From Liolophura sinensis (lineage: Eukaryota; Mollusca; Polyplacophora; Chitonida; Chitonidae): DNA of 64,000 nt. The position numbers were made by a program, and so were the translations under genes. The notes beneath the pieces were generated by a model that was not told the DNA's origin, searched no databases, and was given only the letters and a program-made list of their open reading frames with translations. Positions 14,310-63,330 of the stretch are shown piece after piece (position 1 is the stretch's first letter; every line of letters starts with the position of its first letter). The stretch lies in the NCBI RefSeq assembly GCF_032854445.1, contig NC_088303.1, positions 22,697,501-22,761,500 on the forward strand, written 5' to 3'.

Positions 14310-15345
14310 GAAGAAATGATGACAATCGACAAGGGAAAATGCTGACAATTTTATTTAGAAATATGTAGGGAAGATAATGACTTCAGGAAGTGTTTCGGAT
14401 AACATGGCGGTTGATACTCGTATGAACGAAAGACTTGGGAAGAGACTTGTGGAAATGTTCTAGCGATTTAAGGAAATGTTGACAGTGACATGGGAAAATG
14501 TTGACAGTGACATGGGAAAATGTTGATAGTGACATGAGAATGTGGCAAAAGTGATTGGAGAAATGTGTAAAGTGGCCATATTGGACCATATTGGAATGCT
14601 GAAACTGACATGGAAAAAAATGTTACTAGTAACATGGCAACATGTTGACATGGGAAATATGCTGACTATGACTTCGGCAGATGTTAAAAGTAAAATGGGA
14701 AAATGTTGATAGTGACATGAGAAAATGTCGTTAGTGTCATGGGAAAATATTGATAGTGAGAGGGGAAATGATGATAGTGACATAGGAAAATGTTGATACT
14801 GTCACTTGAAAATGTTGCTACTGGTATGGGAAAAGGTTGACAGTGAGGTGGAAAATGTTGATATTGGTATGGACAAGGTTGATAGTGACGTGGAAAATGT
14901 TGATATTGGTATGGAAAAGGTTGATATTGACGTGGAAAATGGTGATATTGGTATGGAAAAGGTTGATAGTGACGTGGGAAATGTTGATATTGATATGGAA
15001 AATGTTAATATTGACATGGGAAAATGTTGATATTGACTTGGAGAGGAATTGTTATTTAGTGACTCGGTGGAAGACAAGTGGCATTCGGTGAAAGTTGAGT
15101 AAACGTCTACATGAGTCGTCGTGGAACAGTTTTTGTTACAAAGACTCCACGAACTGTGAGAGCAGGAGAAATGTTGGGGAGAGAAAGAGTGTTTTGCCAA
15201 ACTATTGATAATAAAATGAGAATATGCCAACAACAACTTGAGGAAATTCTGATTGTAACACGAATAAATGTTGACAGTGACATGGAAGAATTGTTGACAG
15301 GGGCATATGTCGATAATGATGACAGGAAATGTTGAACAATGACCT
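14310..15345. repeat. Minisatellite, ~21-22 bp unit
   Basis: Many diverged copies of a GACATGGGAAAATGTTGATA-like unit. The most regular part is 14820-15020 (GGTATGGAAAAGGTTGATA alternating with a GACGTGGAAAATG version, 42-bp dimers). Open frames on both strands here are periodic and are not genes. Confidence 0.85.
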
Positions 15346-15365
15346 GATAATATGTCGGCTCTCAC

Positions 15366-15482
15366 TCTTTAAGCTCGTGTGTCACCGCCAGTTCTGTAAG
15401 CTTGTGTGTCACCGCTAGCTCTGTAAGCTCGAGTGTCACCGCTCGCTCTGTAAACTCATGTGTCACCTCGCTCTGTAAGCTT
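15366..15482. repeat. 30-bp tandem repeat, four copies
   Basis: Four copies of a CTCTGTAAGCTCGTGTGTCA-type unit ending CCGC. It adjoins the previous array. Confidence 0.8.
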
Positions 15483-15829
15483 ACTTCATGTTGATAGGTG
15501 GGTAAAAGATCGTGAAAACTGATGGAAACTATGAAAGTAAATATTGTGTTTGAGAATATTGTACTTGAGTACCAAGACAGACAGATCGATCTGTGTGTAT
15601 GTACATAGGAAGTTAATGTAATAACAACAACTTTATGCCTTCTCAAGGTAGCAGAACAGTACCTAGACAGGAAAAAGAAATATAGTATGGAGTATCGCCA
15701 CAGGATGACAGCACGACGGCAATTATTGTAAACCGTCAGTTCTGACGTGAATCAAATTCCCGATCAGCATTGTTTAAAAAGTGAAAAAAAAAAGAATTAA
15801 TAATATCGTTTTCGATTATCGAATCAGAG

Positions 15830-15987
15830 TTAACGAAGGGATCTGAATGCTCTGCTGTAAGGTGAAGTTTTTCCTAAATATTCGTAGTATGGTGTTATGT
15901 TTTTGTCTTTGAATTTCCTCAGCGGGTTTTGCTGGGTCAGATGGTTACAGTTCATTTCCCTTGTGGGGACACGGAGCCTTTTGTCTT
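15830..15987 (-). CDS. NdWFamide neuropeptide precursor, exon 2 (C-terminal peptide)
   Basis: The acceptor AATAATTCAG precedes AAGACAAAAGG. The two leading bases complete the G left by exon 1 (phase 1 to phase 1), so the join reads NWFGKR-EDKR, with two basic sites flanking a two-residue spacer. The exon encodes 51 more residues to a TAG/TAA-class stop at 15830-15832. The tail has one Cys, several basic pairs and a Tyr/Pro-rich segment around ITPYYEYLGK, and ends in FRSLR. It holds no second copy of the tripeptide, as expected for a single-copy precursor. I do not recognise a known peptide in the tail. The splice fit with a small exon 1.7 kb away is the main evidence. No canonical AATAAA was seen close downstream; minisatellite DNA starts about 350 bp beyond the stop. 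Confidence 0.75.
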
Positions 15988-17707
15988 CTGAATTATTGAT
16001 TCGATACAGAACGTTCAATTAAACGGGAACAAAGACAATGTCGTAATATAATCAAACTTTTCCCTTAGACTGTTGAGGTTACTGTATTTTACTGGAACTT
16101 ACACGATTATCATCACTACTTCCTAAGGTTGCAGTAGAATCAACAGCCTCTATTTCAATTGCAGTTGCTTTCAATATTACCTCTTTTTGCCCTAATGCTC
16201 TCCTCTGGAGCGAAAGCGGTATCTTAGTACGCCAGGCTTTCAGATGGAACCACAAAGCTTTATTAAGTTTTATTTCATATTGTGCTCTCCAAGCCTCTTG
16301 TAATCCGTCGTCTGGGGTAACATTAAGGTTGTTGGCCTTGTCTGACCGAGACACACAGCCGTATCGACAAGGTGCTTTAACACCATCTCTGCTTATTCTG
16401 GCTCTCGCTAATCCAATCAACACTTTCGAATTCCCCACACTATTGTCAATAGCTTCGACACTTTTCCTTAAACCTTACGGAAATTAGGGTTGAATTGAAG
16501 GAAAATAAAGTATTTGCTTATATGTCAATTCGTAGCTGAGACAATATTTTGTGTAAACCTCTGTAAGATTGTATGAAAGTAATCCATGAGTCTGATGAAA
16601 CGCAGTTTGAAGGATTTTTGATGGGCAAACTGATGACTTCAGTGTGCAAGGTAAATGCTTTACTGAGTAACGTATTAAACTCCAGTCATTTCGGTTAGGG
16701 CAGACTTCACTGTCTGGAAACTCCTAGCAGGATTTCCGTCTATAAAAGGGGCTATCGTTCCGTTTTGAGAAAACTATCCATGAATATTCATATTTATGTT
16801 CATAACAGTCGAAGAATTAACTGGCACCTATAGTAGCGAGTTAGCTCGTTGTGAATTAAACGCTTACTATATTAAACCCCCATTTTTGGTAAATGGTCTA
16901 GTTCAATTTTACGCTTTAAAGAAAAATCTTCGTTGCTTTTATCAGACATGTCTTTGAACTATCTTACTCAATTAATTAAATATTTTTCTCTTTAAATTAG
17001 AAATTTAGTTCTGAATTATTAAAACACTTGGTGCTTTTCTCAGCATTCGAGTATTTTTGTTATATACGACCATGGACAGGTTATGGATACAGGAAATCGG
17101 TTTGCCTAGAGTAAACCGGCTAATACCCGACAAACCTCTTTAATTAAGGTCATAGCGAAACGAGGTGATATTCGATTTGTATTCGATCATCATTGGCCAG
17201 GGACCCATGGGTTGGGGCAGACTGCAACGCTTCAGCCAAATGAGTAAATCGAGACGTTACAATATAAATCTTAATCATGCAGAAAAGTGATAGTTTCAAC
17301 AAAGCGATATTCATATGTATTTCCAGACATCGATTTCGACCGTTTTCTTTAATTGTAGTCACACATTCTGTTGGTTTGGTTTACTGATCGCGCTCTGGTT
17401 TCCTCCATCCAGAAACCTGAATAATTATTAAGAATGTCCGTAAAGAACAAATAAATAATGAATGCACTGAGGCATTAAGGTTTTGCTTTACAGGAAACTG
17501 TCCGAAATCCAGGGGAAAACTGCTAAACCTCTCCAGAGCGCTTTAACTATGTTTCTGTCAATATATCATGTAAGAATTGATTTGAACACTTAATCAAATT
17601 CAAAAAAAAAAAAAAAGAAAGTAGAAGATAATTGTGGTGTCTTGTTCTAAGTATCCGTTCATCATAGCTTTCTTCTAGGCCTACCTGCGAAAAAAAGTTT
17701 TACTTAC
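15988..17707 (-). other. Intron of the NdWFamide precursor gene
   Basis: A 1.72 kb phase-1 intron with GTAAGT at its 5' end and ATTCAG at its 3' end on the minus strand. It contains an unexplained minus-strand open frame (16079-16438, 119 codons; see findings). Otherwise it is AT-rich DNA with a short poly-A run near 17610. No SINE copy was recognised in it. Confidence 0.7.
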
Positions 17708-17789
17708 CTCTTTTGCCGAACCAATTCGCTCGCACAATACTGCTGGAGATCACCAAGGCAATAAGTAACAAGAACAGCATGGACTTCAT
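17708..17789 (-). CDS. NdWFamide neuropeptide precursor, exon 1 (signal peptide plus NWFGKR)
   Basis: The ATG at 17789 opens a 27-codon exon. Residues 1-21 form a textbook signal peptide: Lys at position 2, a hydrophobic core rich in Leu, Ile and Val, and the end IVRA. Residues 22-27 read NWFGKR. Cleavage after Ala21 exposes Asn-Trp-Phe, then Gly as amide donor, then a Lys-Arg convertase site, giving Asn-Trp-Phe-NH2. This is the layout of the molluscan NdWFamide precursor, whose mature cardioactive tripeptide (D-Trp in Aplysia and Lymnaea) directly follows the signal peptide. The exon ends with one G of a split codon (phase 1) followed by the donor GTAAGT. It joins in frame to 15830-15987, giving a 79-residue precursor. 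The product would act in the secretory pathway and as a released peptide. Identity comes from motif and architecture, not from a search. Confidence 0.86.
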
Positions 17790-17940
17790 GATTTTGACTT
17801 GTGTTTGTGACAGCGTAACTCTGCGCCTGGTCTTTTTTACGTCTGGGTAACTGCAAAGTATCTCACCGTCCTCTGGTCGTTACCGGTGTTGAGTTAAGCC
17901 TGCAGTGTCTCCCCTGCCATAAACTACTATATATGGAAGT
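17790..17940 (-). promoter_or_regulatory. Promoter and 5' leader of the NdWFamide gene, with TATA box
   Basis: On the minus strand ATATATAG lies at 17934-17927, about 140 bases upstream of the start codon. A TATA box there would place the transcription start near 17897-17903 and leave a roughly 110-base 5' leader. The assignment rests on motif and spacing only. No transcript evidence is available here. Confidence 0.5.
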
Positions 17941-18220: not shown

Positions 18221-18395
18221 ATATTTATTTATTTATTTATTTGATTGATTGGTGGGAGGAAACATGGAAGTGTCCGGGGGAAACCCACGACCATCCGCAG
18301 GTTGCTGCAGACCTTCCCCCCGTACGCCCGGAGAGGAAGCCAGCATGAGCTGGACTTGAACACATTTGTGAGACCCGCTCTTGGGTCATTGCGAC
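18221..18395 (-). mobile_element. SINE family A, internally deleted
   Basis: The TTTATTTATTTGATTG tail runs directly into GGTGGGAGGAAAC: the conserved TTTACGCCG...CATTAT block is missing. The rest continues to CATGAGCTGGACTTGAAC and CTTGGGTCATTGCG. Confidence 0.75.
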
Positions 18396-45973: not shown

Positions 45974-46279
45974 CTATTTCTTGTCTATTCGGGTATAGTA
46001 TGTAAAACCCGACCTTTCAATAAAAAGGTCAGCTTCATAATCATAAAGAGAACAATTTTTTTCAAAAGAATTTAACTTTGATATGGAAAAAGACAAGCAC
46101 TGAGGGGAGATCAGACACTTTGACCCGCACCCGAAAATCCCCTTCGTCCTTGTCCACGTGATCAAGGATCCGACTTCGGACGGAATTGAGTTGCGCATGC
46201 GTAAAAGAAAATATCCATTCAAGGGCTGATTAGCATTCATTTCTTGCATCAAACTTTCTGTTTGTGATTGGACTGGTGT
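45974..46279 (-). CDS. PAN/apple domain terminal exon of the LamG/PAN gene
   Basis: The acceptor TTATGTTTCAG is followed by a 101-residue frame ending at TAG 45974-45976. After a Gln/Ser/Thr-rich start (TPVQSQTESL) comes a PAN-like module: FGCGSKCLISPQCLSFSIS, then NCSLYDYEADLF, then GFTYYTRI and a basic tail. The spacing CxxxC...CxxFxx...CxLY is the PAN_1/apple signature, a disulphide fold used for protein or sugar binding in secreted molluscan proteins. Phase 0 matches the upstream linker exon. A possible AATAAA on this strand lies at 45726-45721. Confidence 0.75.
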   Translation of the reverse strand, partial: TPVQSQTESLMQEMNANQPLNGYFLLRMRNSIPSEVGSLITWTRTKGIFGCGSKCLISPQCLSFSISKLNSFEKNCSLYDYEADLFIERSGFTYYTRIDKK

Positions 46280-46517
46280 CTGAAACATAAATTTCCTCAA
46301 ATCTGAGTTCAAACAAGACATAAAATGTTATAATTATATTAACAATAAACAGTGTTAGATTGTTCTATCATAGTACAGAGCTATCACAATACTGACGTCG
46401 AGGCTTTATTGTATAACAGAATAGGATTTAGTTCAAATATGAAGTGAACTGTAATAGTTATATTGATAATAGATAATGGTTTTATGTTGAATGAAGACAG
46501 CAATAGTAAAATTTTAC

Positions 46518-53800: not shown

Positions 53801-53959
53801 TTCTTTTGCAGAAATGCCCACTTATTGTTGACGTGGAGCTTTCCTCTTGTGCCTTCAAACAATTGTTGAACATGTCCATAGGTGTGAAGATTATAGAATT
53901 AAAAGTTTTGAATCAACAATGCCGTGGTTAGTGGTCATCTACAGATGACAAAGACTTAC

Positions 53960-54655
53960 TTGGTACTGCTGCTATCCACCTTCCCTTTTTGCAATTGTTT
54001 AACACTGTACTATCCATTTCCCCTTCACTTATAAGTGCCGTGTAGATTTGTATGCATGCAATTCTTCCGACGAAAGGCGACATTGCATTGCTGAAAGGGT
54101 TCCCCACACGAAGATTTCCGCCATTTGGCAATGAAACATAATCATCAAAGTCTTCATCAATGTCTATGACTTTTTCAGTGTCTACAAACACCTTGATGAC
54201 ACCGTTACTCTTCTCACGAAGGAACCCCAGTTGTAACCACTGGTTTGTTGGTAGACTGTAACTCTCCGACACGGACCCAAGCGACCCGGTTCCCCCTGCT
54301 CCAAACACCTCAACGTGCAAGTGCGAACTAGTCGACCAGACCTTGAATACGTCATTTCTACCGCTGTCTACGTAGTGGAAAAGCGTGACACTGCTACTTG
54401 TCGAAAAGAAAAATGCAGACACCATGAAGTCAGTGCCAAAGTAATCCCCACCGTTGTTTATTTCAATCACAGTTGTGGCGTCAACACTCAGGCTTTGTGT
54501 GCTACCTAGAGCCGAGGGACCATGGTCGAACACACAGTTTGATAGTAGAGCGTTATACGTTCCAGACTTCGTTTCCGTCCCGTACGATTCCTCTGTCAGT
54601 GGCCAGACGCAGTCCGGATCTTGATAGTTACCGACAACCACAACAACGATAACAT
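53960..54655 (-). CDS. Extracellular LamG (laminin G-like/ConA-like) domain exon
   Basis: A 696-base exon between TTTCTTTGCAG and GTAAGT, phase 1 at both ends, typical of shuffled extracellular modules. It encodes about 231 residues. After a Val-rich stretch come GNYQDPDCVWPL, paired cysteines (CVW, NCVFDHGP), central beta-strand sequence (VSAFFF, LHVEVFG, NQWLQLGFLRE, VIKVFVDTEKV) and the closing FVGRIACIQIY followed by LNNCKKG. The WxQLGF, GxIKVFVD and GRIACIQIY pattern marks the Laminin_G_3/concanavalin-like fold of secreted lophotrochozoan proteins. No catalytic function is implied; such domains bind glycans or proteins. It continues into the linker exon at 50710-50753. The frame stays open past the donor into the intron, so the splice site decides the end. 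Confidence 0.85.
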
Positions 54656-54730
54656 CTGCAAAGAAAACGACTACGGTTGAGTGGTGGGTAACTTCACTGT
54701 GTCATGATGGAGGATGAAGTATATACTTAC

Positions 54731-61657: not shown

Positions 61658-63330
61658 CAAAACCGCCATTTACAGCCACTACCACCACCATTTTACTCCC
61701 ATCAAGACAAAGTTCAAACACCCAAAACCGTCACTCACAATCACTGGCCAAGGCCACCACTCACAAGCACAAAAACCGCCACTCAGAATCACAAAGACCG
61801 CCACTCACAAACACCAAAACCGTCACTCAGAATCACCAAGACCGCAACTCACAAACACCAAAACCGCCACTCACAATCACCAAGACCGCCACTCACAAAC
61901 ATCAAAACCGTCACTCACAAGCACCAAGATTGCCACTCACAAACACCAAAACCGCCACTCAGAATCACTGGCCAAGGCCACCACTCACAATCACCAAGAC
62001 CGCCACTCACAAACACCAAAACCGTCATTCAGAATCACCGGCCAACACCACCACTCACAAGCACAAAAAACCGCCACTCAGAATCACAAAGACCGCCACT
62101 CACAAACACCAAAACCGTCACTCAGAATCACCAAGACCGCCACTCACAAACACCAATACCGCCACACACAATCACCAAGATTGCCACTCACAAACACCAA
62201 AACCGCCACTCAGAATCACCAAGACCGCAACTCACAAACACCAAAACCGCCACTCACAAACACCAAAACCGTCACTCAGAATCACTGGCCACGGCCACCA
62301 CTCACAATCAACAAGACCGCCACTTACAAACACCAAAACCGCCACTCAGAATCACCAAGACCGCCACTCACAAACACCAAAACCGCCACTCAGAATCACC
62401 AAGACCGCCACTCACAAACACCAAAACCGTCATTCAGAATCACTTGGCCAAGGCCACTACTCACAAGCACCAGAACCACCACTCAGAATCACCAAGACCG
62501 CCACTCACAAACACCAAAACTGTCACTCACAATCACCGGCCAAGACCACCACTCACAAACACCAAAACCACCACTCAGAATCACCAAGACCGCCACTCAC
62601 AAACACCAAAACCGTCACTCAGAATCACCGGCCAAGACCACCACTCACAAACACCAAAACCGCCACTCACAATCGCCAAGACCACCTCTCACAAACACCA
62701 AAACCGTCACTCAGAATCACCAACGAGGCCACCACTCACAAACACCAAAATCGCCACTCAGAATCACCAAGATCACTAAAATCACCATTTACAACCACCC
62801 AGACCGCCATTTACAACCATCACTTCCGCCATTCACTCACACTGACCAAAACCGCCATTCACAATCACCAAGACCGCCATTTACAACCATCGAGACCGAT
62901 ATTCACAATCATCAAGACCGTCACTCACAACCACCAAGAACGCCATTCATAATCACAAAGACCACCACTGAGAACCAGCAAGACCGCCATTTACAACCAT
63001 CAAGACCGATATTCACAATCACCAAGACCGTCACTCACAACCACAAAGAACGTCATTCATAATCACAAAGACCACCACTGAGAACCAGCAAGACCGCCAT
63101 TTACAACCATCAAGGCCGATATTCACAATCACCAAGGCCGTCACTCACAACCACCAAGAACGCCATTCATAATCACAAAGACCACCACTGAGAACCAGCA
63201 AGACCGCCATTTACAACCATCAAGGCCGATATTCACAATCACCAAGACCGTCACTCACAACCACCAAGAACGCCATTCATAATCACAGAGACCACCACTG
63301 AGAACCATCAAGACCGCCATTCACAACCAT
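61658..63330. repeat. ~22-bp minisatellite, about 75 copies
   Basis: Unit CACTCACAAACACCAAAACC plus GC alternates with CACTCAGAATCACCAAGACC plus GC, with GGCCAAGGCCACCAC interruptions and a later TTTACAACCATCAAGACCG variant. From 62930 on, a higher-order block of about 119 bp recurs (62991, 63110, 63229). All three plus frames are open for hundreds of codons (up to 386) purely because the units lack stops. Confidence 0.93.

Follow-up and report, generated by a model that had tools for sequence, protein, structure and literature searches.

A probable NdWFamide-type neuropeptide precursor gene in the genome of the chiton Liolophura sinensis

The DNA analysed here, henceforth the window, is a stretch of 64,000 nucleotides of the Liolophura sinensis assembly (C9:22,697,501-22,761,500), and the genome searched alongside it comprised 632 contigs with 609,464,459 bases. 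At the locus of interest we identified a short first coding exon (exon 1) of 27 codons plus one base, in which a 21-residue signal peptide passes directly into Asn-Trp-Phe (NWF), a glycine and Lys-Arg (KR). Its ATG has in-frame stops upstream and an A at position -3 of the start context, and the exon ends at a near-consensus splice donor (GAG/GTAAGT); left unspliced, the frame reads GGT AAG and then TAA, ending two codons beyond KR. Known NdWFamide precursors carry NWF-G and a dibasic site immediately after the signal peptide, and this hallmark is present in exon 1. The original prediction had described a signal peptide followed at once by NWFGKR, which is borne out by the letters, the coordinates and the translation of 17789-17708.

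Table 1. Features at the locus, in window positions, with the basis of each assignment.
Feature	Positions	Strand	Basis
Exon 1, coding part: signal peptide MKSMLFLLLIALVISSSIVRA, NWF-G-KR, first base of split codon	17708..17789	-	sequence reading, translation, chance tests
Asn-Trp-Phe codons (the peptide itself)	17718..17726	-	translation
Splice donor GTAAGT	17702..17707	-	sequence reading
TATATA site, possible TATA box	17928..17933	-	pattern scan; consensus match only
Proposed phase-1 intron, 1,720 bases (candidate)	15988..17707	-	phase reading, acceptor scan
Proposed exon 2, tail EDKRLRVP...FRSLR, stop TAA	15830..15987	-	reading confirmed; not above chance
Candidate alternative exon downstream; 77 residues, counting the split codon and the stop; found once in the genome	16079..16311	-	acceptor, composition and codon scores

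Other features of the window were recorded as well. A dispersed 19-nt core, GGTCGTGGGTTTCCCCCGG, occurs in 13 copies with at most 3 mismatches against 0.01 expected (e.g. at 18274-18292, 4697, 38026 and 53368); the copy at 18274 precedes the TATA-like site by about 340 nt and is followed by an AATA-repeat tail, and these elements look like a dispersed short interspersed element. Farther away, minus-strand frames at 53928-54701 and 45974-46327 gave matches to Laminin_G_3 (E 4.2e-08) and, weakly, PAN_1 (E 0.0012, below the cut-off); they may be exons of a gene for an extracellular protein. A 22-nt repeat, present about 72 times, occupies 61722-63326, an array across which three plus-strand frames are open for long stretches.

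A motif of six residues can arise by accident, and the 17-mer pattern coding for NWFGKR occurs at about as many genomic sites (7) as its reversed control (5), which would suit a chance open frame that merely resembles a signal peptide followed by NWFGKR. However, a contiguous signal peptide precedes the motif at just one of the seven sites, namely exon 1. At the other six, inspection by eye of the contiguous upstream frame found no start codon with a hydrophobic stretch, a search that a separate upstream exon would escape. Of 127,800 positions in the window, 40 form the end of a signal-like stretch whose -3/-1 pair is acceptable. With seven motif sites, the expected number of such coincidences is thus about 0.002 per genome; in addition, the GTAAGT donor follows. 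The motif alone is therefore not above chance, whereas its context in exon 1 exceeds chance, and we regard an accidental frame without a gene as extremely unlikely.

The exon 1 gene looks single-copy in this genome. When the 79-residue precursor proposed from exon 1 and a second exon was compared with the genome, it recovered its own two exons and one extra match (E 0.97) with a stop inside, and DNA searches with exon 1 and with 15500-16500 each matched only themselves. These searches found no processed retrocopy spanning the exon junction. A wider pattern for NWF- or NWY-amides hit 127 genomic sites against 143 for its control. From the 100 matches listed of these 127, reaching into C9, we hand-picked 22 in which the Gly is followed by Lys or Arg and perhaps by another basic residue; of these, 15 proved dibasic. 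Judged by eye, none of the 22 carries, directly before the motif, a signal peptide that ends in an ordinary cleavage site, although a separate signal exon would escape this inspection. One site (C2:16549989-16550305) combined a hydrophobic run with NWYGKK, but its residue at -1 is Gln, a stop comes three residues beyond KK, and it is probably a chance occurrence. At C9:804134-805425, 21 NWYG-type matches lie mostly 38 bases apart, a spacing not divisible by 3, which marks a tandem repeat and not a neuropeptide array.

How the precursor continues is less certain than how it begins. The original prediction described a complete two-exon gene, in which exon 1 is joined to a second exon preceded by TTCAG to give 79 residues, MKSMLFLLLIALVISSSIVRANWFGKREDKRLRVPTREMNCNHLTQQNPLRKFKDKNITPYYEYLGKTSPYSRAFRSLR. 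Its letters, coordinates, phases and translation are all correct, and the join 17708-15987 is plausible; support above chance, however, was not found. When 4,000 pseudo-donors were placed at random in the window, an AG with 51 or more open codons in phase lay within 1,720 nt of 92% of them; for 63% the acceptor was also at least as good as that of exon 2, and for 13% there was in addition a dibasic site among the first 8 residues, the last two figures depending on acceptor scores from approximate consensus weights. These weights replaced a splice model built from CCT chaperonin exons of the same genome (42 of 50 matches entered), which solved only 3 of 15 neighbouring exon pairs because many matches run into introns or fall outside the sequence covered, and the acceptor scores are therefore rough. 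Within 6 kb after the donor, 73 of 327 usable AG sites score at least as high as the proposed acceptor by these consensus weights, and at 36 of the 327 the split codon is followed by 52 or more open codons. Both an acceptor score no lower than the proposed one and at least 51 codons are found at ten sites (16713, 16662, 16473, 16311, 15987, 15528, 15106, 14625, 14341 and 13875); nine of them are thus competitors of 15987, and four of these (16713, 16662, 16473 and 16311) lie inside the proposed intron.

Codon usage and composition do not set exon 2 apart. By a synonymous codon-usage score trained on 20 long GPCR frames of the same genome (8,995 codons), exon 2 scores -0.018, a value as low or lower in 19.5% of coding pieces (n = 164) and as high or higher in 35% of non-coding open pieces (n = 417), so that its codon usage is intermediate between the two classes. 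When usage is combined with residue composition, exon 2 is equalled or exceeded by 28.8% of the non-coding pieces (n = 417), and 22.0% of coding pieces (n = 182) score no higher than it does. Taken by itself, composition makes 31% of open pieces (n = 385) as protein-like as exon 2 or more so. A pattern scan from the stop at 15830 to 14355 (about 1.4 kb downstream) found neither AATAAA nor ATTAAA, and among near-variant poly(A) signals within 830 nt there was only CATAAA, at 15637. Just downstream of the proposed exon, 14474-15481 is occupied by minisatellites with units of 22, 21/42 and 27 nt. Exon 2 is therefore not distinguished from chance and the phase match carries little weight: exon 1 of the predicted gene stands, but its second exon remains at chance level. 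More generally, at a genomic GC content of about 40%, agreement of splice phase together with an open frame of 50 codons is weak evidence for a second exon.

The main competing acceptor, 16311, opens into part of a 131-residue frame (16474-16079, minus strand) inside the proposed intron. This frame is found once in the genome, the opposite strand is open over 16077-16487, no Pfam match was obtained up to E 1, and the frame could be an alternative exon or chance. Entered at 16311, it does somewhat better than exon 2 on acceptor (2.6 versus 0.0 by the approximate consensus weights), on composition (matched by 0.3% of open pieces versus 31%, n = 385) and on the combined score (reached by 16.2% of the non-coding pieces versus 28.8%, while 45.9% of coding pieces score no higher); the frame entered at 16473 has an in-frame combined score of 0.020. 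Together with its single-copy status and the nine acceptors that pass the same test as 15987, this favours the view that the peptide gene is the same, but that exon 1 is spliced elsewhere, either to 16311, giving a precursor of 104 residues, or to a farther exon, the proposed tail then lying outside the protein. Against 16311 itself, the 131-residue frame as a whole resembles non-coding sequence in its synonymous usage (-0.096), the opposite strand is open across the same stretch, two AATAAA sites fall inside the frame, and no dibasic site follows soon after NWFGKR. Exon 2, on the other hand, has KR at positions 3-4 of its tail, and its total of 79 residues is near the 83-90 of Aplysia and three sea slugs given in PMC8735849, a range that the 104 residues of the alternative exceed. 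On balance, we put splicing to some other exon at about an even chance; the join to 15987 comes slightly short of that, and exon 2 is the first single choice for the remainder of the precursor.

The tail encoded by exon 2, with its Cys and the Tyr-rich ITPYYEYLGK, had also been suggested as a second bioactive product. The tail does have one Cys, this Tyr-rich stretch and two dibasic sites. We nevertheless found nothing in support of the suggestion: ITPYYEYLGK is not flanked by dibasic sites on both sides, a single Lys follows it, and the tail has no amidation site of the GKR type. The 79-residue reading had no match in PDB or NCBIfam up to E 1, and its one Pfam match (zf-MIZ, E 0.13) was below the cut-off and was discarded. 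Moreover, the suggestion depends on exon 2, itself at chance level. A second bioactive peptide from this tail is thus very unlikely, and a lineage-specific exon 2 carrying a Cys-bearing or Tyr-rich peptide absent from other molluscs is even less likely; what follows the peptide in the precursor probably acts as a spacer, with no separate function. Known NdWFamide precursors contain a single copy of the tripeptide each; the 79-residue reading would hold one NWFG if the join is right.

We therefore interpret the locus as the chiton NdWFamide-type precursor gene, the only one found in the genome, with a probability of about 0.9. The original assignment to NdWFamide precursors is supported for exon 1 by the signal peptide, by the NWF-G-KR immediately after it and by the failure to find a second copy in the genome. 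As far as the consulted parts of the papers cited here go, NdWFamide was first reported from gastropods and bivalves and afterwards as a family of lophotrochozoans in general (PMC6425005), with members in nemerteans and phoronids (PMC8557429) and, among bivalves, in Pinctada fucata and Crassostrea gigas (PMC4200219) and Patinopecten yessoensis (PMC5996578). The chiton gene belongs to this same named family, and given its lophotrochozoan-wide distribution, including nemerteans and phoronids, a chiton member was to be expected. The closest comparison is with Aplysia californica (UniProt A0A161R9R0) and three nudipleuran sea slugs, whose precursors, like the proposed one, are small (about 80-90 residues), with a signal peptide and Asn-(D)Trp-Phe-NH2. 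They measure 90 residues in Aplysia and 83-84 in the sea slugs, with signals of 25 residues, whereas the chiton signal has 21 and the proposed chiton precursor 79 (PMC8735849). Since the scallop member is NWYamide (PMC5996578), the chiton NWF is the form known from gastropods. No chiton NdWFamide precursor was found in print in the passages and sections of the literature covered.

From this known family we infer the steps beyond the sequence of exon 1, including chirality, expression and action in the chiton. Signal peptidase would free the N-terminal Asn, a prohormone convertase would cut after KR, the basic residues would then be trimmed and the Gly converted to the amide. The resulting NWF-NH2 would have a computed [M+H]+ of 465.2245. 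A profile for monooxygenase-type enzymes (PF01082) had 25 matches in the genome, in which amidating and dopamine-hydroxylase-like enzymes are pooled and which therefore have little bearing on amidation. An L/D peptide isomerase may then flip Trp2 to yield Asn-D-Trp-Phe-NH2, which in the gastropod literature consulted is a cardioexcitatory neuropeptide. As in Aplysia, the peptide, once released from neurons, would most likely excite muscle, that of the heart included.

The chiton amide might instead be all-L, i.e. Asn-Trp-Phe-NH2 without a D-residue. Chirality is not encoded in DNA, and the known isomerase activity, the conversion of L-NWFamide to NdWFamide, comes from ganglion extracts of Aplysia, according to the part of PMC11277431 consulted. 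The same source places the D-residues of Aplysia at position 2 or 3, though, and the chiton peptide is identical to that of Aplysia, with its Trp at position 2. An all-L product appears rather unlikely.

The locus is probably a real and ordinary member of a known family, an expected orthologue rather than a new system. Through it, a neuropeptide family with a D-amino acid gains a mapped gene on a chromosome-scale assembly of a chiton, in the aculiferan branch of molluscs, and studies of RNA and peptide gain a defined locus.
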